NCBI GenBank assembly: GCA_016218085.1
Contig: JACREY010000012.1
Span: 310,001-374,000, forward strand
DNA: 64,000 nucleotides
Source: Ignavibacteriota bacterium
GTDB taxonomy: Bacteria > Bacteroidota > Ignavibacteria > Tepidaquicellales > Tepidaquicellaceae
Direction of reading: 5' to 3'
Part shown: in pieces, positions 3,768 to 62,811 of the stretch
How positions within the stretch are numbered: position 1 is the first letter of the stretch
How the letters are laid out: every line of letters begins with the position of its first letter
The notes under the pieces: generated by a model
The model's database searches: none
The model's input: the letters and a program-made list of their open reading frames with translations, nothing else
Told to the model about the DNA's origin: nothing
Position numbers and translations under genes: made by a program

Positions 3768-4838
3768 ATGAAAAAAATTGTTTTTCTGTTTTCGATTTTC
3801 AGTATTCTTTTTCTTATCGGTTGTAGCAGCAGGCCTGCGCCGGAAAAGCTTCCACTGTCTGTGAAATCAACTCTACCGCTTCTTCAGGAGACTCCTCAGT
3901 TTCTGATGTATATGAACTTCAAGGAAATGAGGAAGTCCGAATTCTGGAAACAGAATATATCCGATTCCGTTTTTAATGCAGAGAGGAATTTCGGCAGTCT
4001 GCTTTATACTTTCAAACTTGCGACAGGTGCTTCTATTTCGGAAGGTATCGACGAATTATTTTTCTCAAATGCCTGGCTTGGGGAGAATTCTCTCGTGCTT
4101 AAAGGGGTTTTCGATAAAGCAAAGCTGGACAGTTATATCACAAAAGACACACTTTTTAAAAAGACAGCAAGGCCGGACGGACTGAATTTATATGTATACT
4201 CCGGAAACGGACTATATTTTTTCTTCAAGGATAATTTCACAATCTGTGCAAGTAATTACATGAAGCGTATAGAAGAGATGATTTCCGTGACCGATACATC
4301 TCAGAATTCGGGATTGATGAAGAACAAAGAGCTTGTGAATGCAATAGAGGAAGCAGTGTACAAGGACCAGATATGGATGCTTTCGACGGAAAAAGCATTT
4401 ATACGCGGTATACTTACAAATTTTATTCAGGATAAGTCTTCCGGATCAGATAAGGATAATTACGGCTATTCCGATTCCTCAAAAGCAAATCCCGATTCAC
4501 TTAACAGGGTAGAGGATAAAATACTCAACGATATGTACAAGAACATTAATTCTTTCATAATGTCGGGAAAAATGAAAGAAGAGTTAAAATTTATAGTTCA
4601 GTTCGAGTGCAAGGACAGCAAGAGTTCGGATTCATTTGAAAAGATTCTGAACGGGATGATAGCGCTGGTCAAGCTGAGTTCAAATACAAAAAAGGGAAAG
4701 GGTTCTTCCGCTGCGGAGAATATTCTCGATAATATCAGTATTAAATCTTACGATAAATCTTTGCAGATAAATATAAATATCAACCAAAAAAACATATCGG
4801 ATTTCAGGCAGAACACATTGCTGAAAAGGCCGAATTAA
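3768..4838 (+). CDS. Predicted lipoprotein of unknown function
   Basis: 356 aa. Signal peptide of the lipoprotein class, with the lipobox LIGC placing the lipidated cysteine at residue 19. The body begins with [16 protein letters not shown] followed by KLATG and [13 protein letters not shown], a pattern reminiscent of DUF3352-like proteins that carry repeats of a mixed alpha/beta unit; this resemblance is weak. It lies 10 bp after the ABC permease and may be a periplasmic partner of that exporter. Its last 4 bp overlap the end of the convergent fbp gene. Function not assigned. Confidence 0.65.
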
Positions 4839-5854
4839 ATTTTTTCTCCGGCAAGGAATTTTTCAGCAAGCCTCACATCTTCATCGCTTCCGATAAAGAG
4901 GGGAGTCCTCTGGTGGAGGTTAGTGGGCTGAATATCGAGTATCCTATTACTGCCGTTAGTAGATCTTCCGCCTGCCTGTTCCACTATCATACTGAGGGGA
5001 TTTGCTTCGTACATAAGTCTTAATTTTCCGTTCCTGTTTTTATCGTCTGCAGGGTATATGAAAATTCCTCCGTACAGTAAATTCCTGTGAAAGTCAGCTA
5101 CAAGCGAACCGACATATCTGGAAGAATATGGTCTTGATGTTTCTTTGTCATTTTGTTTTACATATTCGATATAGTTTCTGATTCCGTCCGACCATTTCGA
5201 ATAATTGCCTTCATTAATAGAATAGGTTTTGGATTTTTTCGGTATCTGCATATTTTCGTGAGAGAGCAGAAACTCACCGACAGACGGGTCAAGAGTAAAA
5301 CCGTGCACGCCCTTGCCAGCTGTATAAACCATAATTGTGCTTGAGCCGTAGACAACATAACCTGCGGCAACCTGCTTTATGCCTTTCTGGAGGCAGTCTT
5401 CGAGGGTAGCTGCTCCGTCTTTTGAAACACGCCTGTAAATAGAAAATATTGTTCCGATTGATATATTCGCATCAATATTTGATGAGCCGTCGAGCGGGTC
5501 GAAGTGAACAATGTATTTATTCAATACTCCGTGATGAGAAAATTTATCTTCCATAGGAATAAAATTTTCATCTTCTTCGGAGCAGACAGCGCAGGCGTGT
5601 CCACCGATTCGCATCATATGTGTCAGTATTTCATTGGCATAAACATCGAGTTTTTTTACTGCCTCTCCCTGCACATTTTCCTCTCCCGTAAGCCCGAGTA
5701 TGTCAATAAGTCCTGCCCTATTTACTTCGAGAGAAATCACCTTGCACGCAAGCGCAATATCATAAAGCAAATCCGAAAGCTGTCCGGTCGCTTCGGGAAA
5801 TTTTCTTTCTTCTTCTATAATGTGCCTGTAAAGGGTAGTAAATCTGTTTACCAT
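4835..5854 (-). CDS. fbp: Fructose-1,6-bisphosphatase class I
   Basis: 339 aa, the normal length for class I FBPase, which dephosphorylates fructose 1,6-bisphosphate in gluconeogenesis. Metal-binding residues are visible as SEEDE (92-96) and [10 protein letters not shown] (119-128); the C-terminal [14 protein letters not shown] is the conserved substrate/metal site ending in the family-typical GG-x-(A/S)-(T/S) turn. It converges on the upstream lipoprotein gene, overlapping by 4 bp with no visible terminator between. The region immediately upstream of its start is a tandem repeat tract, which must contain or abut its promoter. Confidence 0.96.
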
Positions 5855-5860
5855 AGTCTT

Positions 5861-6003
5861 TTTTAGTTTATAAAGTTTGTAAAGTTTATAAAAAAGTTAT
5901 AAGGTTATAAAGTTATAAGGTTATAAGGTTATAAAGTTATAAGGTTATAAAGTTATAAGGTTATAAGGTTATAAGGTTATAAAGTTATAAGGTTATAAGG
6001 TTT
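5861..6003. repeat. Tandem 8-9 bp simple repeat tract (GTTATAAG/GTTATAAA)
   Basis: About 130 bp of head-to-tail units alternating GTTATAAGG and GTTATAAA, degrading at the left end to GTTTATAAA. One 23-bp stretch (5931-5953) is the exact reverse complement of 6357-6379 and of two copies at 51199-51221 and 51268-51290. The right end supplies the last codons and the stop of the minus-strand four-helix-bundle gene. There are no unique spacers, so it is not a CRISPR array. Confidence 0.95.
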
Positions 6004-6337
6004 TTATGAAATTTGATATTAATTTTGAGATAATAATTACTTCATTGAATAATTTATTATATTGTTCATCTGTAATATATTTTAACTCTAATGCCAGATA
6101 CAACATACTTCTGACTTCTGCAGCACTTCCTTTTGCAACATAAAGAAACTGTGTAAACTCTTTGTTTGTTTTTCTCTCAAAACCCTCAGCAATATTATTC
6201 ATAATAGAAACAGAAGCCCTCAGAATCTGCCATTTAAAGTTATTATCTTTATTGCCGTCTAATATTTTATAAAGTTCAACGGTCAAACTTTTTGACTTTT
6301 GCCAGGAGATTATATCTTCAAATTTTTCTATAACCAT
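5993..6337 (-). CDS. Four-helix-bundle protein, S23/23S-intervening-sequence family
   Basis: 114 aa from the ATG used here; an in-frame GTG 12 bp upstream is possible but MVIEKFEDIISWQK is the usual start of the family. Conserved positions include WQKSKSLTVELYK, SVSIMNNIAEGFER and FLYVAKGSAAEVRSMLYLA. Family members form a four-helix bundle (also the fold of Avd in diversity-generating retroelements) and were first found inside 23S rRNA intervening sequences; molecular role unknown. Here it stands alone between fbp and radA, between inverted copies of the same simple repeat, and its stop codon lies in the repeat. No reverse transcriptase or rRNA is nearby. Confidence 0.9.
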   Translation of the reverse strand: MVIEKFEDIISWQKSKSLTVELYKILDGNKDNNFKWQILRASVSIMNNIAEGFERKTNKEFTQFLYVAKGSAAEVRSMLYLALELKYITDEQYNKLFNEVIIISKLISNFIKTL

Positions 6338-6354
6338 AAAAAAACTCACAATAA

Positions 6355-6390
6355 TTAACTTTATAACCTTATAACTTTAAAACTTTATAT
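6355..6390. repeat. Right-hand inverted copy of the TTATAACC repeat
   Basis: Upstream of the four-helix-bundle gene. The 23 bp at 6357-6379 are the exact reverse complement of 5931-5953 in the tract on the other side of the gene, so the gene is bounded by inverted arms. The same 23 bp recur twice, in this orientation, before ligA. Confidence 0.9.
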
Positions 6391-6433: not shown

Positions 6434-7801
6434 TTAGACGAGAAGAGCTATTGCGTCTTTGATTTTTTCCACCCCTAAGATTTGAATCTTATATTTGTTA
6501 ACATTAATATTCTTTAAATTGTTCTTTGGTACGATTATTTTTTTAAATCCCAGCTTCGAGGCTTCGTTTATTCTTTTATCTATGTTCGGGATAGTCCTGA
6601 TTTCACCTGCCAGTCCTACTTCTCCGAGGATTACGGTTTCTGAATCAACGGGGATATCCTTGTAAGAGGAATAAACCGCTGCCGCGGCGGCAAGGTCTAC
6701 AGCAGGTTCAACTATCTTCACTCCGCCTGCTATATTCAGGAATATGTCATATTTATTCAGGTAAAGCCCGAGTTTTTTTTCGAGTACAGCGATTAAGATA
6801 TTGGTTCTTTTATAATCGAAACCCATAGATGTCCTCTGCGGAATTCCGTAGCTGGTGGAAGTAACAAGCGCCTGAACTTCGACGAGTATAGGTCTTGTGC
6901 CTTCTATTGCGGAAGATATAATGCATCCGGATGCTCCGTAATTTCTCTGCGAGAGAAAAACCTCGCTGGGATTCGGCACTTCCTTCAGTCCCATATCTGT
7001 CATTTCAAAAATTCCGATTTCATTTGTGGAGCCGAACCGGTTTTTAATGCTGCGGAGTATTCTGTAAAAATGCGTACGCTCACCTTCGAACTGAAGAACC
7101 ACATCCACCATATGTTCCAGCACTTTCGGTCCTGCAATTGAGCCGTCTTTTGTGATGTGTCCGACTATAAATGTCGGTATGTTATACAACTTGGCAATTT
7201 TGATTAGCATAGAAGTTGATTCGCGAAGCTGTGAGATTGTTCCAGGGGAACTTTCTATTTCAGGACGGTAAACGGTCTGGATGGAATCAACTACTATGAT
7301 ATCGGGTTTTTCATTCTCTATTACGGCTGATATTATTTCGAGGTCCGTTTCAGATAGTATGAGGAAATTATTCAGCCGGTAATTCAGTCTTTCACATCTT
7401 AGTTTTATCTGCAGGGCGGATTCTTCTCCGCTTACGTAAAGAATTTTTTTATCCTGAAGTTTTTCGGCAATCTGGAGCATCAGGGTTGACTTGCCGATAC
7501 CCGGGTCGCCACCGATTAATATTACAGAGCCGTTAACAATTCCACCGCCGAGCACCCTGTCGAGTTCATCTATTTTCGTTTTGAATCTCGATTCGTTCTG
7601 GTTTTTAATATCGGATATATTTCTGAGTTCTGCCGATTTCGATTTCAGCGAAGATGTTTTGCTCAGCTTGCGTTTATCGGTTTCGACAATTTCCTCGACT
7701 AAAGTATTCCATTCACTACATTCGGGACATTTGCCCGTCCAGCGCGGTGAATTATAGCCGCAATTCTGGCAAACATATTTTGTCTTGATTTTCGCGCTCA
7801 T
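6434..7801 (-). CDS. radA: DNA repair protein RadA (Sms)
   Basis: 455 aa, full length. Domain order: C4 zinc finger (C11, C14, C25, C28), RecA-like ATPase with Walker A GGDPGIGKST at 97-106, the RadA-specific KNRFGSTNEIG motif near residue 255, and a C-terminal Lon-protease-like domain containing GGVKIVEPAVDLAAAAAVYS. RadA is a hexameric helicase that processes recombination intermediates by branch migration. It is the last gene before a 880-bp gene-free stretch and is transcribed away from it. A TAAATTTG box on the minus strand at 7868-7875 could be its -7 element. Confidence 0.97.
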   Translation of the reverse strand: MSAKIKTKYVCQNCGYNSPRWTGKCPECSEWNTLVEEIVETDKRKLSKTSSLKSKSAELRNISDIKNQNESRFKTKIDELDRVLGGGIVNGSVILIGGDPGIGKSTLMLQIAEKLQDKKILYVSGEESALQIKLRCERLNYRLNNFLILSETDLEIISAVIENEKPDIIVVDSIQTVYRPEIESSPGTISQLRESTSMLIKIAKLYNIPTFIVGHITKDGSIAGPKVLEHMVDVVLQFEGERTHFYRILRSIKNRFGSTNEIGIFEMTDMGLKEVPNPSEVFLSQRNYGASGCIISSAIEGTRPILVEVQALVTSTSYGIPQRTSMGFDYKRTNILIAVLEKKLGLYLNKYDIFLNIAGGVKIVEPAVDLAAAAAVYSSYKDIPVDSETVILGEVGLAGEIRTIPNIDKRINEASKLGFKKIIVPKNNLKNINVNKYKIQILGVEKIKDAIALLV

Positions 7802-24928: not shown

Positions 24929-25657
24929 ATGCTTAAAAATGTCCTGGATAAAGGTTTTATAGAAGTAATAGACAAGCTCGGAAATGACCTGACGGTTGTG
25001 AATTCCGCAAGGGTTTCTTTCGGAAAAAGAAAAACAAAATATGATAACGGTGACAGGATACTCGTACGCTTTCTCGCAGAGAACAGGCACTACTCCCCGT
25101 TCAGGCATATAATAGTACAGTTTCACGTGAAGGCACCTGAGTTTGTGATGAGGCAGTGGTACAAGCACGTTGTAGGCATAGAGACATCTTCAAGTTATCC
25201 GTCAAAGGACCATGCATGGAATGAAATCAGCGGACGTTACGTACCCGTGAATGATTTTTACAAACCTGCGAACTGGCGCAAGCAGTCTTTGAATAACAAG
25301 CAGGCATCGGAAGGCAGTGTTGATGACCAGCTGAAAGCTGAAGAGCTTTTCGACAGCACGATGAATACAATGGTTGATTCGTATAATAAGCTTCTCGAAC
25401 TCGGCGTTGCAAAGGAGCAGGCGAGAATTCTGCTTCCGCTGAACCAATATACGGAAGTTTACTGGACGGCATCTTTTCAGGCAGTGATGAATTTCATCGA
25501 GCTGCGCGACGACCCACACGCGCAATTTGAAATCAGGGAATATGCACTTGCTATGAAAGATATGATGTATGAGCTTTTTCCTGAAACAACAAAAATCTGG
25601 CTGGAAGTTTACGAGACGATGAAGACGCTATCGGAACCGGGAAAGACGATAAAGTAA
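24929..25657 (+). CDS. thyX: Flavin-dependent thymidylate synthase
   Basis: 242 aa. Makes dTMP from dUMP with methylene-tetrahydrofolate and FADH2. Conserved ThyX elements: NSARVSFGKR, LVRFLAENRHYSPFRH, FVMRQWYKH and NEISGRY, plus LPLNQYTEVYWTASFQAVMNF and the C-terminal RDDPHAQFEIREYA. The signature RHRxxSxNExSxRY is not contiguous: RQWYKH is separated from NEISGRY by an insertion (VVGIETSSSYPSKDHAW), and the usual RHR is YKH. Such lengthened loops exist in some ThyX subgroups. Together with folE2 it places folate/dTMP genes close by. Confidence 0.93.
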   Translation: MLKNVLDKGFIEVIDKLGNDLTVVNSARVSFGKRKTKYDNGDRILVRFLAENRHYSPFRHIIVQFHVKAPEFVMRQWYKHVVGIETSSSYPSKDHAWNEISGRYVPVNDFYKPANWRKQSLNNKQASEGSVDDQLKAEELFDSTMNTMVDSYNKLLELGVAKEQARILLPLNQYTEVYWTASFQAVMNFIELRDDPHAQFEIREYALAMKDMMYELFPETTKIWLEVYETMKTLSEPGKTIK

Positions 25658-25845
25658 TTCTGAATTATGAATTCTGAATTATGAATGAAAATCGTAAAGC
25701 GTTAATAGTGAAACGTGAGACGTAAAACGAAAAACGTAAATCGTAAAATGTAAAATGTAAAACGTGAGACGTAAAACGTGAATCGTTCCGCCGCGGCGGA
25801 CACAAAGAACGTGCAATAGTAAATCGTAATTGTTTATAAAAATCA
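25658..25845. repeat. Composite simple-repeat tract
   Basis: Begins with two copies of ATTCTGAATTATGA (25658-25684), continues with CGTAAAA/TGTAAAA-type units including two copies of AACGTGAGACGTAAAACG (25712-25729 and 25761-25778), and contains the palindrome TCCGCCGCGGCGGA (25787-25800) followed by CACAAAGAACG. The palindrome plus CACAAAGAACG recurs at 51226-51250. The right end overlaps the 3' end of the proline dehydrogenase gene. Confidence 0.9.
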
Positions 25846-34228: not shown

Positions 34229-34235
34229 TAAGTAA

Positions 34236-37200
34236 ATGAAAAATCTGAATTCTAATTTTATTAAAGAGTATATAATCAAAATCGTAGTACCAATAATAAT
34301 TATATATTCCATAAATACAAAAACACAAGCACAAACGGTTATACCTGTTGGTGCAAGCCAGACTTACGCAAAAATTTATGATGCATACAACAGTATATCA
34401 GAACCTCTATCCACATCATATATAATAGAGATACAAAGCGATTATAATGTGAGTAATGAAACTCAGATTACATTAAATTATAAAAGCGGTGCAAGTGCTT
34501 CGAATTATATACTGATATGTCCTGCTCTAAATGTATCAAAAACAATTACGGGAACATCTTCTTCCGGCACGGTATCATTTAACAGTGCGACTTTTGTAAC
34601 TATAGATGGTACTTACCGCGGAGGTACATCTTCCCTGACGATTGCAAACAGCAGTTCTTCGGGAGTTACGGTAATGTTTGTGAATGATGCGGTAAATAAT
34701 ACGGTAAAAAACTGTACGATTACCGGAAGAAACAGTTCGACTTCTTCGGGCGTTATTTATCTTTCGACAGCAAACAGCGGTAATGGAAATGATTACAATT
34801 TCATTTTAAGTAACACAATCACAAAGTACAGCACGTATCGTCCTGCGAATTTAATTTATTCCAGCGGAACATCAGGAAAAGAAAATGACAACAATACTAT
34901 CAGCGGTAATAGTATATATGATTTCACAAATTGCGGAATTTACGTTACGAATACCGGAAACGGAAACAACTGGATAATAGGCGGAGAATCATCACAGGAA
35001 GGTAACAGCATTTATCAGGTGACCAACAGCAGTACGGCACAGACAGGGATTTTTCTAAAAGCAGGTACCACAACTTCAGGACACGTAATAAAAAACAACT
35101 ATATTGGCGGCTCGACTGTACAGTGCGGAGGGAGTGCCTGGTGTAACACAGGAGGCGTAGCATTTGTTGGTATTAAGCTGAACGTATCTACATCGACATA
35201 TGGAGTAATGGTTTCATACAATACCGTAAAAAACTTTAACATGACAAGTACGTCGAGTTCTGCGATATTCTATGGAATTTATCCTGATTCCGGAAGTATG
35301 TACATCGAGCATAATACAATAGGAGATGAAAATACGGCAAATTCAATAACTACTTCAGCTCCCGCATTAATTTGCGGAATTTTTTCGGAATCATTGTTTA
35401 ATGTTGATATTAAATATAATTCGATTTCAAATATAACAATGACAAGTACAAGCAATACCGACAAGCCAAAACTTAGAGGCGTAAGGCATTCCAATAAGAT
35501 TGGCAGGTCATACGGAAAGGTCACAATCAGTAATAATACTGTACATCATTTAAAATCAGCAGGCAGAATCCCTTTTTCAGACGGTACGATATACGGAATA
35601 GTTTATTGCGATTCTTCAATTTATTCACAAGGAGAGATCAGCAATAATGATATTCACGATTTATGCTGCAACAGCACAACCGGTGCGAATGTATATATGG
35701 CAGGCATAGAGGTTGATGAATATGCATACAACGCAGATGTTTTTAACAACAGGATATGCGGATTATATAATTATAATGCAACGGATCCGATGATTGGCGG
35801 AATTATCACTCATATTGATTACGGAACATCTGTTAATCATAACATAAATATTTATAATAACATGATAGCACTGAATAACAGTCAAAATGCACAACTGTAT
35901 GGAATATGGGATGCAGGTTCGGTGACTAATACAACTACTTTTAATGTTTTTTACAATACTATTTACCTTTCAGGTACTGTTTCATCAGGAACAAATCAGT
36001 CTGCTTGTTATAACAGAGGATTTACAGGAGCCACGCCGACTAATTTACCAACAAAATCAGTGACTTATTTGAAAAATAATATTTTTATAAATACAAGAAG
36101 CGGAGGAAGCGGAAAACATTATGCAATTATTAATGCACCGGATGCAACGGTATTGCCAACAACGGGATGGTCAACAAAATATTCGAATTACAATTTCCTT
36201 GTAACAAGTAATTCGTCTAATGCAGGAGGCTGGGGACAGGGTTCGTCTTTTTCTTCTTATAATTTTTCAAGCTGGATAAATCAAACCGGAACAATGAAAC
36301 AGGATTATAACAGCTGGTACCTGGAAAGTTCTGCATTAAATATTACAAATTTCTTTACAGATACTTCGACCGCTAATCTTAATATTAAATCCGACCAAAG
36401 CGAAGGGTGGTATGTAAAAGGAAAAGGAATAGCCGGAATAATGTCGGGCAATATAGCAACGGATATAAATGGAAACGCAAGAAGCACAACATTCGGATTC
36501 GGCACATCAATTGGAGCAAATGAGTTTATTCCTTCATCAACTCCACCGTTACCTAATATAACAGGAACAATTTCTGTGGACAGTATCCAGACAATAACAT
36601 CTGCCGGAAAAACATTGGGTACTTTACAATGGACGGGCGGTACGGCACTTCCCACGGCTTTATCATTCGAATATTTCAGCGGCAGTGTTCCTCCCGGAAC
36701 TCTTTATGGAAAGTACTCGAATTGTTATTGGACAATAACTCAGACAGGCGGCAGTAATTTTTCATATAATTTGATTTTAAATTATGATTCGGCGGATGTC
36801 GGAACGATAGATAATGAGTTAAATATAAGACTTGCGAAAAGAGACGGCGGACCCTGGACGACTTATCTGAACTCAACTGTAAATACTACTAATAAGACAA
36901 TAACACTAAACAATCTGAATTCTTTTTCCGATTTTGCTCTTTCGGATGTTAACGAGCCAATGCCGGTACATATCGAATACTTTACATTTAATATTAAAGG
37001 TAGAAATGTAGGGCTTAAGTGGAAAACAACATCAGAAATAAATAATAAGGGTTTTGAAGTGCAGCGACTGGAAAAGGGTGTTTATAAATACCTGGGATTT
37101 TTAGCTGCAAAAAACGGAACATCGAATGAATACAATTTTGAAGATAAGAATCTTCAACCGGGAAGATATAATTACAGATTAAAGCAAATCGATTTGAACG

Positions 37201-37514
37201 GAAACTTCGAATATTTCAGTTTGTCGAATGAAATCGCGATTAATGCACCAAATTCTTTTGAGTTATCCCAAAATTATCCTAATCCGTTTAATCCTGTTAC
37301 AAGAATAAATTTTTCAATTGCAAAATCGGGATTAGTAAAATTGGTTATTTATGATATAACAGGAAGAGAAGTGAAAAAACTTGTTGATAAAGAACTCGAA
37401 CAAGGTTTTCACTTTGCAGATTTCAATGCATCAAACCTGAGCTCAGGAATTTATTTCTATACATTGAAATCAAACAATTTCGTAAGCACAAAGAAAATGG
37501 TTTTAGTAAAATAA
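34236..37514 (+). CDS. Large secreted beta-helix protein with T9SS sorting domain
   Basis: 1092 aa. Signal peptide ends near TKTQAQ. Residues about 60-700 are parallel beta-helix repeats rich in N, S, T and G with unit patterns such as NNTISGNSIYDF, GIYVTNTGNGNNW and VFNNRICGLYN. A second all-beta region follows, then the linker containing PVHIEYFTFNIKGRNVGLKW (a common pre-CTD Ig-like module) and the sorting domain SQNYPNPFNPVTRINF ending FVSTKKMVLVK. Type IX export to the surface is inferred. Target polymer or partner unknown. It has its own Shine-Dalgarno but no Pho-like box. Confidence 0.85.
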   Translation: MKNLNSNFIKEYIIKIVVPIIIIYSINTKTQAQTVIPVGASQTYAKIYDAYNSISEPLSTSYIIEIQSDYNVSNETQITLNYKSGASASNYILICPALNVSKTITGTSSSGTVSFNSATFVTIDGTYRGGTSSLTIANSSSSGVTVMFVNDAVNNTVKNCTITGRNSSTSSGVIYLSTANSGNGNDYNFILSNTITKYSTYRPANLIYSSGTSGKENDNNTISGNSIYDFTNCGIYVTNTGNGNNWIIGGESSQEGNSIYQVTNSSTAQTGIFLKAGTTTSGHVIKNNYIGGSTVQCGGSAWCNTGGVAFVGIKLNVSTSTYGVMVSYNTVKNFNMTSTSSSAIFYGIYPDSGSMYIEHNTIGDENTANSITTSAPALICGIFSESLFNVDIKYNSISNITMTSTSNTDKPKLRGVRHSNKIGRSYGKVTISNNTVHHLKSAGRIPFSDGTIYGIVYCDSSIYSQGEISNNDIHDLCCNSTTGANVYMAGIEVDEYAYNADVFNNRICGLYNYNATDPMIGGIITHIDYGTSVNHNINIYNNMIALNNSQNAQLYGIWDAGSVTNTTTFNVFYNTIYLSGTVSSGTNQSACYNRGFTGATPTNLPTKSVTYLKNNIFINTRSGGSGKHYAIINAPDATVLPTTGWSTKYSNYNFLVTSNSSNAGGWGQGSSFSSYNFSSWINQTGTMKQDYNSWYLESSALNITNFFTDTSTANLNIKSDQSEGWYVKGKGIAGIMSGNIATDINGNARSTTFGFGTSIGANEFIPSSTPPLPNITGTISVDSIQTITSAGKTLGTLQWTGGTALPTALSFEYFSGSVPPGTLYGKYSNCYWTITQTGGSNFSYNLILNYDSADVGTIDNELNIRLAKRDGGPWTTYLNSTVNTTNKTITLNNLNSFSDFALSDVNEPMPVHIEYFTFNIKGRNVGLKWKTTSEINNKGFEVQRLEKGVYKYLGFLAAKNGTSNEYNFEDKNLQPGRYNYRLKQIDLNGNFEYFSLSNEIAINAPNSFELSQNYPNPFNPVTRINFSIAKSGLVKLVIYDITGREVKKLVDKELEQGFHFADFNASNLSSGIYFYTLKSNNFVSTKKMVLVK

Positions 37515-41290: not shown

Positions 41291-42004
41291 ATGAAATTAG
41301 ACGCATTATTTATAGGTTCTCATCCTGATGATATTGAGCTCACGTGCGGCGGGACGGTTTGCAAACTTGCCGATTCGGGCAAAAAAACAGGTATTATTGA
41401 CCTGACAAAGGGCGAACTCAGCACACGGGGAAATCTTGTACAGAGGAAAAAAGAAACTGAAAAGGCATCCAAAGTAATGGGGATAAAAGTAAGGAAAAAT
41501 CTCGGGCTGAAGGACGGGAATATAATCAACAATTCCGAAAACAGGAAAAAGCTGATTAAGCTGATTCGCGAGTTTCAGCCGGAAATTGTTTTTGCGCCGT
41601 ATCCTTCGGACAGGCATCCCGACCATATCAACGCAAGCAATTTTATACGAGAGGCGGTTTTTTATTCGGGCTTGAGGAAAATTGTTACGGGAAACCTGAA
41701 AGCATACAGACCAAAAAAAGTTTTTTATTACAGGCATGCTTATGATATTCCGATAAGTTTTATTATGGATGTGAGTGAATCGTTCGGAAAGAAGCTCGAA
41801 GCAATTAAATGTTACGATTCGCAGTTTTATAATACGAAATATCAGAAGAAAGAGCCTGAAACATACATAAGCAGTAAGAGATTTCTCGATGACATAATCA
41901 CGCGCGCTAAGTTTTTCGGATTCAAGATTGGCGTGGAGTACGGGGAGCCGTTTTTTTGTTATGAGGAAATGAAAATGAACGGGGAAATGGTGTTTGATAT
42001 ATAG
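41291..42004 (+). CDS. bshB1: PIG-L deacetylase, BshB1-like
   Basis: 237 aa zinc deacetylase. SHPDDIELTCGG gives the metal ligands H11, D13/D14; APYPSDRHPDHINAS supplies the second histidine pair; the RYRTYRPKKVFYYRH-like segment around KAYRPKKVFYYRHAYD is typical of BshB1, which removes acetate from GlcNAc-malate in bacillithiol synthesis. The order GIIDLTKGELSTRG is the BshB1 signature. bshA and bshC are not in this window. It is followed by a simple-repeat element that starts within 2 bp of its stop. Confidence 0.88.
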   Translation: MKLDALFIGSHPDDIELTCGGTVCKLADSGKKTGIIDLTKGELSTRGNLVQRKKETEKASKVMGIKVRKNLGLKDGNIINNSENRKKLIKLIREFQPEIVFAPYPSDRHPDHINASNFIREAVFYSGLRKIVTGNLKAYRPKKVFYYRHAYDIPISFIMDVSESFGKKLEAIKCYDSQFYNTKYQKKEPETYISSKRFLDDIITRAKFFGFKIGVEYGEPFFCYEEMKMNGEMVFDI

Positions 42005-42107
42005 TGTAAAAAGTAAATTGTAAAAAGTAAAACGTAAGAGCGTTAACATTTCTTTGCACTGTTCTTTTTTTTACATTTTACATTTTACTATTTACAATTT
42101 ACTATTA
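42004..42107. repeat. Inverted-arm simple-repeat element without a gene
   Basis: Left arm 42013-42037 and right arm 42078-42102 are 25-bp inverted copies with two mismatches, built from GTAAA(A)(A/T)GT units. Between the arms lies a 40-bp core including GAGCGTTAACATTTC and TTTGCACTGTTC. Same style as the element bounding the four-helix-bundle gene, but with no gene inside. Confidence 0.9.
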
Positions 42108-42137
42108 AGAAGAAAAGAATAATTTTATAATTAAAAT

Positions 42138-43330: not shown

Positions 43331-43939
43331 ATGCTTAATATTTCGGATTCACTTGAATCGTTAGTTGATGAACTTTCGAAGCTTCCTCAAATCGGACGCA
43401 AGACGGCACAGCGGCTTGCAATGCACATTATCAAACAGCCGAAAGAGGATGTGGAAAAATTATCAAAAGCTTTAATAGAAATAAAAGAAAAAATAAAATT
43501 CTGCAGTGTCTGTTGCAACATCACTGAAGACGATGTATGCAAGATATGCAGTTCGGAGAAGAGAAATAAAAATGTAATATGTGTGGTGGAAGACCCGAAA
43601 GACGTTTATGCAATCGAAAAGACAAATGAATATAGGGGAATGTATCACGTTTTGCACGGCAGGATTTCCCCTCTGGACGGCATAGGTCCTAATGATATAA
43701 AAATAAAAGAACTTCTTTACAGGCTTGACGAAAAAGAAACCGGAAAAGTTGATGAGCTGATTCTTGCGCTCAATCCGACCGTGGAAGGCGAGACAACAAT
43801 TTTATATTTGAATAAACTTATAAAACCTTTGAATGTAAAAATCACGCGCATAGCAAGGGGAATACCGATTGGCGCTGACCTTGAATTTGCTGATGAAGTG
43901 ACTCTTGCAAAAGCGATTGAAGGTCGTGTCACTGTTTAA
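43331..43939 (+). CDS. recR: Recombination protein RecR
   Basis: 202 aa, full length. A helix-hairpin-helix N-terminus ([15 protein letters not shown]), the C4 zinc finger [16 protein letters not shown], the Toprim domain with [14 protein letters not shown] and a C-terminal [19 protein letters not shown] walker-type segment. RecR works with RecF/RecO in loading RecA at gaps. Follows ybaB as in most bacteria, with a repeat tract in between. Confidence 0.98.
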
Positions 43940-44087
43940 TTAATAAATAGTAATTAATAATTAGTAAATAAGAGCGGAAGTCAGAAGATAGAAGATAGAA
44001 AAGCTATTATAGCCAGAAGTTAAAGAAGCGATTACAGATAGAATTTTTTGAAAAAGAAATTTAACATTTAACATTTAGAATTTAACA
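43940..44087. repeat. Simple-repeat tract before a methyltransferase gene
   Basis: AATAGTAATTA-type units on the left, a GAAGATAGAAGATAG run, and TTTAACATTTAACATTTAGA on the right ending at the TTG start of the next gene. No inverted arms are obvious. The tract sets the region that must contain the promoter and initiation site of the methyltransferase gene. Confidence 0.7.
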
Positions 44088-44825
44088 TTGAGCAAAGAGT
44101 GGTTCAGGAAGTGGTTTTCTAATAAGTATTATCTCGAGCTATACAGGCACAGGGATAGTAAGGAAGCGACTGATTTGATAAACCTGATTCAGAGAAGCGT
44201 TCCGCTGAGCAGCGGAGCAGAAGTGCTGGATGTATGCTGTGGTGCGGGAAGGCATTCGATAGAATTTGCAAAGCGCGGATTTGATGTTACCGGTTTTGAT
44301 TTATCCGGGTATCTAATCGGCGAAGCGAAGAAAAATAAAGCAGCACTGAAAGAGAAAAATGTAAATGTAAAATTTCTCATCAAGGATATGAGAGATTTTA
44401 ATTTCGGAAACTCTTTTGAGCTGGCGCTGAACATTTTTTCAAGCTTCGGATATTTTGAAACTGATGATGAGAACTTCAGTGTTTTTAAAAACGTAAAATC
44501 ATCACTGAAGAAAAAAGGATATTTCGTTTTTGATTTTTTAAACGAAGCCCTGCTCAGGAAAAATCTGGTAAAGAAAGATTTTATAGTTGTGCAGGGAAAA
44601 AAGGTGCATCAGGAAAGAAGAATAGAAAATAATTTTGTTTATAAAAATATTAGAATCGGGAAAGATGTTTTTACGGAGAGAATCATGCTGTATTCATGCG
44701 CTGAAATCCGCGCAGAGCTTGAAAAAACGGGATTCAACGTGAAGAATGTGTACGGGGATTATTTCGGAAATAAATTCTTTTTGAATAAATCAAACAGGTT
44801 TATTTTAATTGCTCAGAAAAATTAA
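44088..44825 (+). CDS. Class I SAM-dependent methyltransferase
   Basis: 245 aa from a TTG start. SAM-binding motif I is VLDVCCGAGRHSIEFAKRG with the acidic residue in VTGFDLSGY; motif II/III is LIKDMRDFNF and ELALNIFSSFGYF. The N-terminal WFRKWFSNKYYLELYRHRDS is a cap often found in small-molecule methyltransferases of the Methyltransf_25 type. Substrate unknown. The next gene overlaps its end by 17 bp. Confidence 0.88.
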   Translation: MSKEWFRKWFSNKYYLELYRHRDSKEATDLINLIQRSVPLSSGAEVLDVCCGAGRHSIEFAKRGFDVTGFDLSGYLIGEAKKNKAALKEKNVNVKFLIKDMRDFNFGNSFELALNIFSSFGYFETDDENFSVFKNVKSSLKKKGYFVFDFLNEALLRKNLVKKDFIVVQGKKVHQERRIENNFVYKNIRIGKDVFTERIMLYSCAEIRAELEKTGFNVKNVYGDYFGNKFFLNKSNRFILIAQKN

Positions 44826-50062: not shown

Positions 50063-51134
50063 ATGTTAAAAAAATTTGCGGAAGACTTAAAATTATTCAG
50101 GGAAAGCAAGAAAATAACGTTGCTCCAGATAGCCAATGAAACAAAAATACATATATCGAATTTAGAAAGAATAGAAAACGGTGATTTTAATTTCATGCCC
50201 CAGCCATACATCAGGGCATTTCTGAAGCAGTACATAAGATGCCTCGGACTGGATGAAAAGGAAACGCTGTATAATTTCGACCTTGCCAAAAGCGGGAGGT
50301 ATCAGCCGCAGGAAGGCGCTCTGAAAGAAAGGGAAGGTCTCGAAAAGAAGGAAACTGAACCCGTTCAGGAAGAACAGCCTGCAGAAGAAAAAAAAGAAGC
50401 TCCCGAACAAGAGGAAATACCCGAAAAAGAAGCAGGGGAAATTGAGAGCCTCTTCGAGGAGAAGGTCATGCTGACGCCCTCAAAGAAACCAAAAACAAAC
50501 GGCAGGAAAAAATTCATACAGCCCCAGCCTGTTAAAAAAATCGAAACGGAAAAAAACACGCCATTTGCGGAAGAACAGGAAGTCAGGAAACAGCCTCCGA
50601 AGAAATCAATTAACTTTTCACCTTCGATTTTCAAGTCACTCGGGATAATAGCGGTGGTGCTTCTGCTGGGTTACGGGATATATCTTCTTGTTACAACTGT
50701 ATTCCTGACCGGAACGTCGAAATCAAAGTTTGATATTGTCCGGCAGAATTTCGATACGGTAGTAAAGGAAAACGAAAAAAAGATTCTGGGTAAGCGCTCG
50801 AAAGAAGAAATCGAAGATTCGATTAAAAATGTTCAGAGGGTGCAGGATTCAATCAGGAAAGCCGAAAATGATTCACTGACTCTTGAAATCAAGTGCCTGA
50901 AGAAAGGATACATTTCCGTAATTATAGATTCAATCTCTTATAATAATATGAGCAAGGAATCTTTTGATAAGGATTATTCGGGAAGCTGGAAGGCGAAAAA
51001 ATATTTTTATGTGACTTCGAATAATACAGAAACATTTATACTATATTTAAACGGAAAGAAGCTTGACATTAAGGACACGAAAATAAAATACCTGAAAATA
51101 GGGCGCGAGGGAATTGTTAAGAGCAGTAGTCAGT

Positions 51135-51136
<2 letters not shown>
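50063..51136 (+). CDS. RodZ-like HTH and transmembrane protein
   Basis: 357 aa. Residues 1-75 are a helix-turn-helix domain of the RodZ type (KKITLLQIANETKIHISNLE, RIENGDFNFMPQPYIRAFLK). A long acidic Pro/Glu/Lys linker follows; one membrane helix lies near 192-215 (LGIIAVVLLLGYGIYLLV); the periplasmic C-terminal domain (about 255-350) resembles DUF4115. RodZ links the MreB cytoskeleton to peptidoglycan synthesis. It is divergent from yggS with about 65 bp between starts. Confidence 0.85.
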
Positions 51137-53308
<2,172 letters not shown>

Positions 53309-54063: not shown

Positions 54064-54648
54064 TTGACAGAAGCCAGATATAATAAGTTTAAGAAAGTAG
54101 TTTCGCAGAGGCAGAAGCACCTCACGCTGGTGCTTGAAAATATTCACGACCCGCATAACGTAAGCGCAGTGCTGCGCACGTGCGACTGCGCGGGGATAGA
54201 TAAAGTTTACCTGATTTACAACACGAATAAATTCCCGAAAATCGGGCGCGTTTCCTCCGCCAGCGCAAAGAAATGGGTGGAGCTTGTAAGGTTCAATAAT
54301 GTGGATGAGTGCTTTGCCGCGCTGAAAAAAGACAAGTATAAAATATACGCAACCCACATTTCCGAAACGAAGAAAAATAAATCGCTGTATGAAATTGATT
54401 TGACGAAGCGGGTTGCAATCGTATTCGGAAACGAACACGCGGGAGTTTCGGAAGATGTGATTAACAAGGCGGACTGGAATCTAGTGATTCCGATGTACGG
54501 ACTGATACAGTCGCTGAATATCTCCGTTTCCGCGGCAGTGTGCATATACGAAGCCCTGCGCCAACGCGAAGCAAAAGGGATGTATAAGAAATCGGCTTAT
54601 ACTAAAAAAGAGCTGGATAAAAAACTGGAATATTATTTGAATAAATAG
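54064..54648 (+). CDS. trmH: tRNA/rRNA ribose 2'-O-methyltransferase, SpoU/TrmH family
   Basis: 194 aa from a TTG start. SPOUT-fold signatures: ENIHDPHNVSAVLRTCDCAG (motif 1), IVFGNEHAGVS (motif 2) and IPMYGLIQSLNISVSAAVCI (motif 3, with the knot). The short N-terminus and C-terminal LRQREAKGMY favour TrmH, which methylates Gm18 in tRNA, though a specific rRNA target cannot be excluded. A simple-repeat tract follows. Confidence 0.88.
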   Translation: MTEARYNKFKKVVSQRQKHLTLVLENIHDPHNVSAVLRTCDCAGIDKVYLIYNTNKFPKIGRVSSASAKKWVELVRFNNVDECFAALKKDKYKIYATHISETKKNKSLYEIDLTKRVAIVFGNEHAGVSEDVINKADWNLVIPMYGLIQSLNISVSAAVCIYEALRQREAKGMYKKSAYTKKELDKKLEYYLNK

Positions 54649-54649
54649 T

Positions 54650-54735
54650 GATTGGTGGTTAGTGAATAGTCAATAGTCAATAGTGAATAGAAAATAGTAA
54701 ATTGTAAATAGAAGAACATTGAACGGACAACAAAA
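54650..54735. repeat. GAATAGT-type simple-repeat tract
   Basis: Units of the form (A)GTGAATAGT, TAGTCAATAGTCAATAG and AGTAAATTGTAAATAG, followed by AGAACATTGAACGGACAAC. The AGAAC(n)3-4(G/A)A(A) motif resembles the AAAGAAC cores at 25804 and 51243. Confidence 0.7.
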
Positions 54736-60075: not shown

Positions 60076-62811
60076 TTACTTTTTCAAATCATATCCGTTT
60101 TTAGTACCTTTATCAATTGCCTTTATGCCGTCTGACATCCAGACGGGCATCGGCTCGCCTTTCAGATAATGATTAAAGAACTGCATCATTCGTTTTGCAA
60201 GGTCAACCCTGTTAGGCCATTTAACGAGGTTGTGCTCATCGCCGTTATATGTCAGCATCCACGCTGGTTTATTAAGTCTCCTCAGCGCGGTAAAAAATTC
60301 TATTCCCTGCTGCCACGGCACTGCTCCGTCGTTGTCATTTGACATTATCATCAGGGGTGTTTCGATTTTATCTGCTCCGAAGAGAGGTGAATTTTCAAGA
60401 TATAGGTCGAGAGCTTCCCAAAGAGTTTTTCCGATTCTGCTCTGCGCCTGCTCGTACTGGAATGCCCTCACCATTCCCGATTCCCACCTGATTCCGCCGT
60501 AAGCGCTGGTCATATTAGAAACCGGCGCGCCTGCCCACGCGGCTTTATACAGATTTGTCCTTGTGACAAGGTATGCAACCTGATATCCGCCCCAGCTCTG
60601 TCCCTGAATTGCCATATTGTTTTTATCAATATATCCTTTTTCAAGCAGTGCATACGTGCCGCTGATAATTGCATTGTATGCGCTTTTCCCGGGGTAGCCG
60701 ATTTTGTAAGTGATATCGGGAATGAAAACCACATATCCGTTGCTGTTGTACAGAGGGAAATTTATAAACGAACGGCTTGGAACAGGCATATAATGGGCGT
60801 GAATCCTGTCGGTATATTTTTCATAAAAATATGCAATCATAGGATACTGCTTGTTCGGGTCGAAGTTCTCGGGCTTGTAAATCAATCCCTTTTGGTCCAC
60901 ACCTGTTGAATCTTTCCATTTGAAAAGCTCAACCGAGCCCCAGAGATATTTTGACTGCTGGGGATTTGCATTCGAGATTTTAACTTTATTTGAAAAATCC
61001 AAATTGCCCGTCCATAAGTCAGGAAATTCAACATAGGAAAATCTTGTAAAGATTAACCTGTCCGATTTTTTAGCTTTTACGGGATTACTGAATCCGAAGT
61101 CTTCCATTACAAGTTCTTTCGGAGCATTGCCGGAATTTATTTCAAGAGAATAAAATCCCTCGAGCATTGTGTTTTCATTCTGCGCGCTTAATAAAATTTT
61201 ATTCGGAATGTATATCGAATCATCATCGAGCTTTGAATATCTGAATATTGTTTTTGTGTCTCTACCGATTTTAGTAATGTTGACGGGTGCAGTTTCGTTT
61301 TTAGGATTTACTTTCCAGATGTCGTACCTGTCGTATATCAAAACCGATTCATCATCCTTTGTCCAGCCTGCTATACCGTACTGTTCCGGGTCGTTCGGTA
61401 AATCATATTCCTCATCATACATTTTCTCAGGAATCGATTTTGTAATAACCACATCCATATCGTCTTTTAACGAGTAAGAGTGATATGTGCTGTCTTTTGG
61501 TTCATAATACAGGAAGTAATTTCCGAGCGGGGAGAAGTCGGAATAAAGTTTTCTTTTCGGGACAATCAATTTTTTCTCACCTGTTTCGAGATTGACAGAA
61601 TAGCAATCCATATACGTTGCATCTTCCCACGAAGAAAGTTTTTGATACGGTTTTTCATTTGTTCCGAAAGCAATATTCCCGTTTCCTTTATTCAGAATAA
61701 TTACTTTTTGCATATCGTTATCGCCAAGCTGAATAACTTTATCGGCAGCGATATTATATACAGCGAGGTATGTGCGCTTTTTTTCTCTTTCCAGGTCGTG
61801 AAGCTGCTGCGACTGCAGTAAGTCATCATTCCAGTTCCAGATGTCAACCTTGAATTTCTCTTCTTCGAGAAGTGAGTCTTTCGGCTCGGGCGATATTTTC
61901 GGTGCTGTTTGAAAAAAGAGTTTGGTGCCGTCTTCGGAAAAAGTCATATTATCGTATGCGCTCACTTCCCATCCGTCCGGAAGCGTGGTAGTATCTGCAA
62001 TTGGTTTGATTGTTCCGTTATTCCAGTAATAAAGAGTATACCTTTTTATGTCGGTCGTATCTTTCGAGTGAATAAAAGCAACACGGCTTCCTTCCGCATC
62101 AACGGCAAGTTTTTTAATTGTTCCCGGCTGGCGGAATATTACTGCAACACTTTCTTTTTTTGTATCGAATATGCTGACAAATGAAGTATCCTTCTTGCCG
62201 TTTTTTGTTTTACCCGTGAAGGCAAGTGTCTTTCCGTTTTTTGAAAATGCTCCTTCGTTCACGTCTTTAAGAATAAATTTTTTATCCGTAACCGGATAAA
62301 TGATATTCATAAAAGAATACGTGAGTGAATCTTTTTTATTCGAGAAATCCTTTGATTCAAATGTATATGCAAGCCAGCTCTCGTTTTCCTTAGGAATGTA
62401 ATATCCCGTGAGTTCGGGATATTTAGTGATTTTATTATTTGCAAATAATCCCAGCGAATCCTTAGGCATCTGGTCTTTCTTTTTCTTTTTCATCTTCAGA
62501 TCGCGAGTGATTTTTTCGGGAGTTTTTATTTTGAACACGAAGAAATCCGAATTCGGAGAAAATGTAACATCATATCCTCTCGAAACTGAATCTTTCATTC
62601 CGCTTTCGGTATTGTAGAAGTAAAGCCAGCCGTCGCCTTTCTGCGAATTGACTTCGTAAGTAATCCATTTTCCGTCGGGTGAAATTCGCGGCTTTTCCAT
62701 GCGCTTCCAGCTTTCATAAACGTCGTGAGTGAGAGGCACCTTTGCGGAATCCTGTGCGAAAAGCACTGCGGTAAAAAGTAAAATGTAAAATGTAAAAAGT
62801 ATTTTTTTCAT
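60076..62811 (-). CDS. S9 family prolyl oligopeptidase-type peptidase
   Basis: 911 aa with a signal peptide ending near VLFAQ. N-terminal seven-bladed propeller (about 50-560) followed by an alpha/beta-hydrolase domain. Catalytic serine in IQGQSWGGYQ (near 738), aspartate in SNDNDGAVPWQQG (near 825) and histidine in NGDEHNLVKW (near 859). Prolyl-dipeptidyl or acylaminoacyl-peptidase-like activity in the periplasm or outside is expected. The signal-peptide codons FTFYILLFTA are spelled by a tandem ACATTTT-type repeat also seen at 42069-42090. Confidence 0.93.
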   Translation of the reverse strand: MKKILFTFYILLFTAVLFAQDSAKVPLTHDVYESWKRMEKPRISPDGKWITYEVNSQKGDGWLYFYNTESGMKDSVSRGYDVTFSPNSDFFVFKIKTPEKITRDLKMKKKKKDQMPKDSLGLFANNKITKYPELTGYYIPKENESWLAYTFESKDFSNKKDSLTYSFMNIIYPVTDKKFILKDVNEGAFSKNGKTLAFTGKTKNGKKDTSFVSIFDTKKESVAVIFRQPGTIKKLAVDAEGSRVAFIHSKDTTDIKRYTLYYWNNGTIKPIADTTTLPDGWEVSAYDNMTFSEDGTKLFFQTAPKISPEPKDSLLEEEKFKVDIWNWNDDLLQSQQLHDLEREKKRTYLAVYNIAADKVIQLGDNDMQKVIILNKGNGNIAFGTNEKPYQKLSSWEDATYMDCYSVNLETGEKKLIVPKRKLYSDFSPLGNYFLYYEPKDSTYHSYSLKDDMDVVITKSIPEKMYDEEYDLPNDPEQYGIAGWTKDDESVLIYDRYDIWKVNPKNETAPVNITKIGRDTKTIFRYSKLDDDSIYIPNKILLSAQNENTMLEGFYSLEINSGNAPKELVMEDFGFSNPVKAKKSDRLIFTRFSYVEFPDLWTGNLDFSNKVKISNANPQQSKYLWGSVELFKWKDSTGVDQKGLIYKPENFDPNKQYPMIAYFYEKYTDRIHAHYMPVPSRSFINFPLYNSNGYVVFIPDITYKIGYPGKSAYNAIISGTYALLEKGYIDKNNMAIQGQSWGGYQVAYLVTRTNLYKAAWAGAPVSNMTSAYGGIRWESGMVRAFQYEQAQSRIGKTLWEALDLYLENSPLFGADKIETPLMIMSNDNDGAVPWQQGIEFFTALRRLNKPAWMLTYNGDEHNLVKWPNRVDLAKRMMQFFNHYLKGEPMPVWMSDGIKAIDKGTKNGYDLKK

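Follow-up and report, generated by a model that had tools for sequence, protein, structure and literature searches.

The S23 gene and its repeat arms

The window, a stretch of 64,000 nucleotides from contig JACREY010000012.1 of an Ignavibacteriota bacterium (genome G000), harbors a four-helix-bundle gene of the S23/IVP family between two genes of the same strand, the upstream one presumably encoding a RadA-like ATPase and the downstream one a class 1 fructose-1,6-bisphosphatase-like protein (both named from sequence; Table 1). Profile matches identify the product as a genuine member of the S23/IVP family (PF05635: E 4.8e-32, 110.8 bits, curated cut-off 33.8; TIGR02436: E 3.4e-32, 110.9 bits, cut-off 24). 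This copy lies between the radA-like and fbp-like genes and not in an rRNA gene. S23 is the sole gene of the cassette and PF05635 its sole domain match, and neither a transposase nor a Y1/HuH tyrosine nuclease was found in the gene and domain content of the cassette.

Table 1. Genes, arms and gene-less arrays located in the window
Feature	Position	Strand	Description
S23/IVP four-helix-bundle gene	5993..6349	-	118 aa, GTG start at 6349; ATG 4 codons further; PF05635, TIGR02436
Upstream arm (gene sense)	6356..6389	-	about 4 copies of an 8-mer of taaagttataaggttataaagtt type
Downstream arm (gene sense)	5896..6003	-	13 copies of the 8-mer of the upstream arm, inverted; includes the S23 stop codon
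Outer 9-mer variant of the downstream arm, AGTTTATAA	5865..5895	-	
Upstream neighbour (presumed RadA-like ATPase)	6434..7801	-	same strand as S23
Downstream neighbour (presumed fructose-1,6-bisphosphatase)	4835..5854	-	same strand as S23
Gene-less array, window arm family	51192..51221	+	best match the L006 arm, cosine 0.91
Gene-less array, window arm family, directly repeated	51256..51299	+	L006 arm, cosine 0.92
Gene-less array, GTAGTTA family	51119..51166	+	arm family of S23 gene L001; L001 arm, cosine 0.82
Gene-less inverted pair with short loop, MITE-like	42003..42111	.	GTAAAAT family, the arm family of S23 gene L002
Gene-less array joining TTCTGAA-type and GTAAAAC-type units	25652..25786	+	
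Two gene-less arrays, TAATTAA- and ATTTAAC-type	43936..44095	+	
Gene-less array, TAGTGAA/TAGTAAA units	54644..54715	+	
Gene-less array, GTAAAAA/GTAAAAT units	62766..62807	+	

The initial annotation described the gene as flanked by 23 bp in inverted orientation, with its stop codon in the repeat and with two direct copies without a gene elsewhere. All of this was confirmed: the sequence aactttataaccttataacttta occupies 6357-6379, recurs exactly at 51199-51221 and 51268-51290, and has its exact reverse complement at 5932-5954 (one base from the 5931-5953 first given), and the stop codon (5993-5995) lies inside the downstream array. The 23 bp are not the repeat unit but part of arrays in which an 8-bp unit (GTTATAAG/A) is repeated in tandem, the arrays being placed in inverted orientation around S23. 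Alignment of the two flanks of the gene gave a score of 29 in inverted orientation compared to 11.5 in direct orientation and about 10 in shuffled sequences. At the orthologous site of a congener (G001), the gap between the radA and fbp genes measures 150 bp versus 579 bp in the window and contains inverted arms of the same family with no S23 gene. The size change looked for at orthologous sites is thus present, and the gene may have been gained in the window or lost in the congener, a direction that this site alone cannot decide.

Inverted arms are a general property of S23 loci

The genome of the window (3.3 Mb in 22 contigs) contains 10 S23 genes, all 10 of which carry inverted simple-repeat arms, each with its own 7–9-bp unit (GTAGTTA, GTAAAAT, GTAGAAG, GTTATAAG, TGTACAA, TTCAGAA, AACAAAT and others). 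S23 genes were present in 29 of 30 relatives and in none of 14 well-known control genomes, an absence that may be the reason why the arms went overlooked. When the 300-bp flanks of each gene were aligned with each other, an inverted score of at least 16, taken as threshold, was reached by 81 of 94 S23 genes from 30 genomes and by 3 of 350 control genes (444 kb of the window genome), while only 6 S23 genes reached it in direct orientation; the inverted score exceeded the direct one at 89 of the 94. A large open frame of the window (34235-37514) has 300-bp flanks with a long direct match (score 53.5) and possibly belongs to a repeated gene family.

The period of the arms is mostly 7 and sometimes 8 or 9, with tandem units recognized by inspection, and the copy number is variable, 5–6 units being the commonest arm length. 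Arms picked by periodicity only, ignoring the partner, also resembled each other in inverted orientation (cosine 0.52) compared to direct orientation (0.11) or a random locus (0.08). In a sample from the phylum the arms were more degenerate and 10 of 30 S23 loci reached the threshold, and among 67 loci from many phyla in GTDB it was reached by 46 in inverted and 16 in direct orientation; this last scan used a narrower alignment after the first proved too diverse, so the GTDB set consists mostly of the window-type subfamily. Additionally, all seven S23 genes read on cyanobacterial plasmids (Nostoc, Anabaena, Calothrix, Pseudanabaena) had such arms.

Another characteristic of these loci is the orientation of the upstream neighbour, which is shared with S23 at 87 of 88 loci of the order (81% expected from adjacent gene pairs of G000), and at 26 of 30 and 61 of 67 loci in the wider sets. 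Purifying selection acts on S23 (dN/dS about 0.10 in orthologues at sites other than the window). Some copies (L078, L093, L088, L098) have an in-frame stop with the arms mostly kept, which suggests decaying elements.

The arms evolve with the gene

Concerted change was followed at 13 sites having the same neighbours in several genomes. At 11 of them (p 0.017) the two arms of a locus were more alike than either was to the same arm in the orthologue; counted by pairs, the arms were concerted in 63 of 70, but there the arms had been chosen for likeness. Between non-orthologous loci, across phyla, arm similarity increased from 0.05 to 0.37 with rising S23 identity and stayed flat (0.03–0.06) over the same range when the wrong strand was compared, the pair counts in these comparisons not being independent since some pairs are related by descent. 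The arms are part of the element, evolve together and go with the S23 subfamily.

Gene-less arrays and elements

In samples of 400–464 kb per genome, arrays of the same kind were also found away from S23 genes. G000 has 39 intergenic 7–9-mer arrays in 464 kb (about 84 per Mb), most of them without S23, and several of its gene-less arrays are inverted pairs with a short loop. The gene-less arrays of a genome resemble the S23 arms of that same genome: 0.53 in G000 compared to 0.315±0.043 for random sets from other genomes (0/300), 0.41 compared to 0.24 in G007 (0/300), and 0.36 compared to 0.24 in G019 (7/300). The repeat is hence not unrelated in distribution to the gene family, as the arm units track S23 subfamilies and the gene-less arrays match the arms of their own genome.

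One array of about 17 copies of the 8-mer ACAAAGTC (L102:7542-7693) has no matching S23 gene in G000. At the borders or loops of gene-less arrays belonging to several unit families, G000 shows an enrichment of about 5-fold in the hexamer AAGAGC/GCTCTT (4.1 versus 0.74 per kb; for example window 51119-51166, L102:11016-11158 and L104:19583-19635). The hexamer was rejected as a general border motif, the enrichment occurring in G000 and in neither G007 nor G019.

Filled and empty sites

Homologous operons on Nostoc plasmids provide sites in both states, and in Nostoc sp. ATCC 53789 the S23 element and the empty site occur on sister plasmids. Site 1 is empty, with a stop-to-start gap of 3 bp, in pNsp_c, pC052_A, pC052_B, p057_H and pNsp_b; in pC052_D and pNsp_a it holds a cassette of 420 bp with S23 between GTCAGGA arms, and in pNPM1 one of 602 bp. 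The empty state is likely the older one, since it is common to more distant plasmids. Site 2 is filled in pNsp_c only, by a cassette with GGGAAAA arms, and is empty in 7 plasmids; its S23 differs from that of site 1 (49 of 125 residues alike), and pNsp_c and pC052_D share the gene lying between sites 1 and 2 at 99.7% identity. The junctions at both sites are compatible with a candidate 3-bp duplication (CTA, ATG), seen in these two insertions only. Additionally, a gene-less element of 182 bp, which has the same arms and is missing from the homologues, breaks the S23 gene of pNPM1, a further site (site 0) carries gene-less elements in 5 plasmids and none in 3, and nested gene-less elements with GTCAGGA arms and differing cargo occur in pNsp_a and pC052_B (L347:700-1000, L350:48-467).

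Two other gene pairs were seen in both states within genera. In one genus, the paaA-paaB gap is filled in 5 genomes (464–566 bp), and in 2 the stop-ATG distance is 10 nt; the nbaC-ACMSD gap is filled in 11 genomes, and in 5 the genes overlap or abut. Empty paaA-paaB, nbaC-ACMSD and Nostoc sites are mostly repeat-free and hold only 0–60 bp. In several genomes of one genus the nbaC-ACMSD gap (L257, L258, L261, L265) holds another ORF of about 450 bp, which is unlike S23 and has no arms visible by eye.

In three species with the paaAB insertion the synonymous difference of S23 is 0.32–0.46 versus 0.63–0.75 in both flanking genes (p 5e-5 to 2e-10, with approximate site counts), and nucleotide identity is elevated over the element alone; S23 may have been swapped between species at this site or kept by unusual constraint. 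The opposite case was found between G002 and G017, whose neighbouring genes are 93–97% identical and S23 47–70%. Because the S23 genes at nbaC and those at paaA each make up a clade of their own, loss or local exchange is partly involved, and part of the presence and absence within the order would be explained if the insertions are old and were repeatedly lost or underwent allelic exchange. No recent pair of almost identical S23 cassettes was seen at two unrelated loci of the same genome. Two contigs of G017 (C263 and C346; L323, L324) share 3.1 kb at 80% identity with an identical S23 protein; they were rejected as a recent in-genome copy of the element because the similarity spans the whole 3.1 kb.

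Relation to known systems

In build the cassettes resemble the S23-encoding intervening sequence (IVS) of 23S rRNA in Coxiella and Leptospira, which likewise has an S23 ORF in an insert of about 430 nt, inverted terminal arms and a sporadic presence. The parallel, already suggested by the initial annotation, is strengthened by the Coxiella IVS, which comprises a 28-bp terminal stem, the S23 ORF and, directly before this ORF, GACAGAT heptamers in tandem (PMC4990558); IVP genes have also been found in rRNA inserts of CPR bacteria (PMC11270868). Unlike the rRNA IVS, the S23 cassettes are located between protein genes, their arms are locus-specific 7–9-mer arrays and their gene-less relatives are dispersed.

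In organization the cassettes recall RAYT/REPIN systems, where each repeat family has one distinct single-copy gene near its repeats whose closest relatives are found in other genomes (PMC3116915). Here too the gene is flanked by its own repeat, its nearest relatives belong to other genomes and gene-less copies are dispersed, often as inverted pairs, but S23 is not a HuH/Y1 nuclease and its repeats are tandem heptamers, not palindromes. The S23 element is formally a member of neither RAYT/REPIN nor the rRNA IVS. As in an insertion sequence or MITE, the cassettes show terminal inverted repeats together with filled and empty sites. The Avd protein of diversity-generating retroelements (DGR) belongs to a family related by sequence and structure (PMC10053308); unlike Avd, the S23 genes occur without a reverse transcriptase, and G000 has no RVT_1 match.

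The heptanucleotide arrays of cyanobacteria are known as STRR. Both these and the arrays of Beggiatoaceae are intergenic tandem heptamers, as are the arms of the cyanobacterial plasmid S23 genes; TAACTGA repeats have been reported in Beggiatoaceae in a study where S23 genes are unmentioned (PMC4679880). An earlier survey listed 23S_rRNA_IVP genes in cas loci (PMC3936711). In Anabaena sp. 90 and Pseudanabaena an S23 gene of the same family lies between cas6 and cas4 with inverted heptamer arms; since their arms lie between neighbouring cistrons, these are interpreted as insertions and not, as in the prior reading, as part of the cas gene set. Full-text searches of open-access journal papers yielded no description of S23 genes that carry arms of this kind outside rRNA.

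A probable mobile element and its alternatives

The window locus probably belongs to a widespread family of small mobile elements that would work in a RAYT/REPIN-like manner, with S23 acting on the arms. The element measures about 420–610 bp and consists of an upstream tandem 7–9-mer arm, S23 and an inverted downstream arm of the same unit. This architecture, the co-variation of the arms, the dispersal of gene-less copies and the coexistence of filled and empty sites are direct observations. From the sequence comparisons, the mobility of the S23 cassette family is well supported: the initial annotation had suspected mobility from a gene without nuclease carried between repeat arms, with solo repeat copies at other places, and that picture now extends far beyond the window locus, with the pairs of empty and filled sites found elsewhere speaking for movement. 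As for the action of S23 on the arms and the mover of the element, we infer the following. In solved relatives S23 is a pentamer of four-helix bundles (PMC4990558), with five chains in 2GSC and 2RLD. The pentamer would be the element's own factor, binding the cognate arm repeats as nucleic acid and pulling the two arms together into a hairpin, whereby host enzymes could copy both the element and its gene-less relatives or insert them; S23 on its arms would then resemble RAYT on REPIN, and the co-transcribed hairpin an rRNA intervening sequence. No nuclease, transposase or reverse transcriptase is found within the element. An obligate pairing with a reverse transcriptase or with a Y1 transposase was rejected, these being absent from several S23-bearing genomes (no RVT_1 match in G000, Y1 transposases missing from four relatives with S23), and as to a phage vehicle, the window S23 protein had no tblastn match in phages.

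The module might instead serve RNA processing or regulation and not be mobile, which we consider unlikely. The arms would then form a stem in a polycistronic mRNA with the S23 ORF in its loop, and either RNase III would cut there or S23 rings would bind the mRNA repeats, controlling S23 and the genes near gene-less arrays. TRAP, which binds spaced triplets in mRNA, offers an analogy for such rings. The co-oriented upstream genes, the predicted stem of the window element (z -3.5), the co-variation of the two arms, the correspondence of arms of mostly 5–6 units with five-chain relatives, and the known excision of rRNA IVS by RNase III (PMC4990558) all agree with it. However, it leaves unexplained the empty-site gaps of 0–3 bp, the element-shaped insertion in an S23 gene and the sharing of arms and gene across phyla. 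G.U-type mismatches are not clearly favoured over A.C-type ones (264 versus 233, p 0.18), and a wobble excess was rejected as proof of RNA-level pairing, being not significant and of opposite sign between data sets. Regulation through RNA and movement as an element can both be true together.

It is less probable still that simple repeats already present in the host make up the arms and that S23 genes insert into these repeats or are captured by them. In G000 gene-less arrays do outnumber S23 genes and the congener has arms without S23 at the window locus, but this proposal is weakened by the mostly repeat-free empty sites at paaA-paaB, nbaC-ACMSD and Nostoc, and the arm unit tracks the S23 subfamily across phyla. 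The proposal that slippage grows the tandem repeats and hairpin template switching homogenises the inverted copies, with S23 as a passenger, would account for simple repeats of variable copy number and for concerted change of inverted repeats, but is very improbable given the association with one gene family (81/94 versus 3/350, also in unrelated phyla) and the match of gene-less arrays to the S23 arms of their own genome.

Returning to the mobile element, a broader formulation is possible, though we hold it only tentatively: a pan-bacterial mobile class in which a nuclease-free ring protein recognises co-evolving heptamer arms and moves the cassette and its gene-less relatives into intercistronic gaps through host enzymes, and which would be the source of S23-type rRNA IVS and of many heptanucleotide arrays.

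Concluding remarks

S23/IVP proteins have so far been orphans, linked with insertions in rRNA, with CRISPR loci and with accessory proteins of DGR, and the inverted heptamer arms give the family one common setting and a testable role. S23 elements also offer an origin for many of the 7–9-bp arrays of bacterial genomes, and S23 genes labelled as CRISPR-associated can be read as passengers. If S23 does move DNA or RNA although it brings no nuclease along, this would represent an unusual route of mobility.
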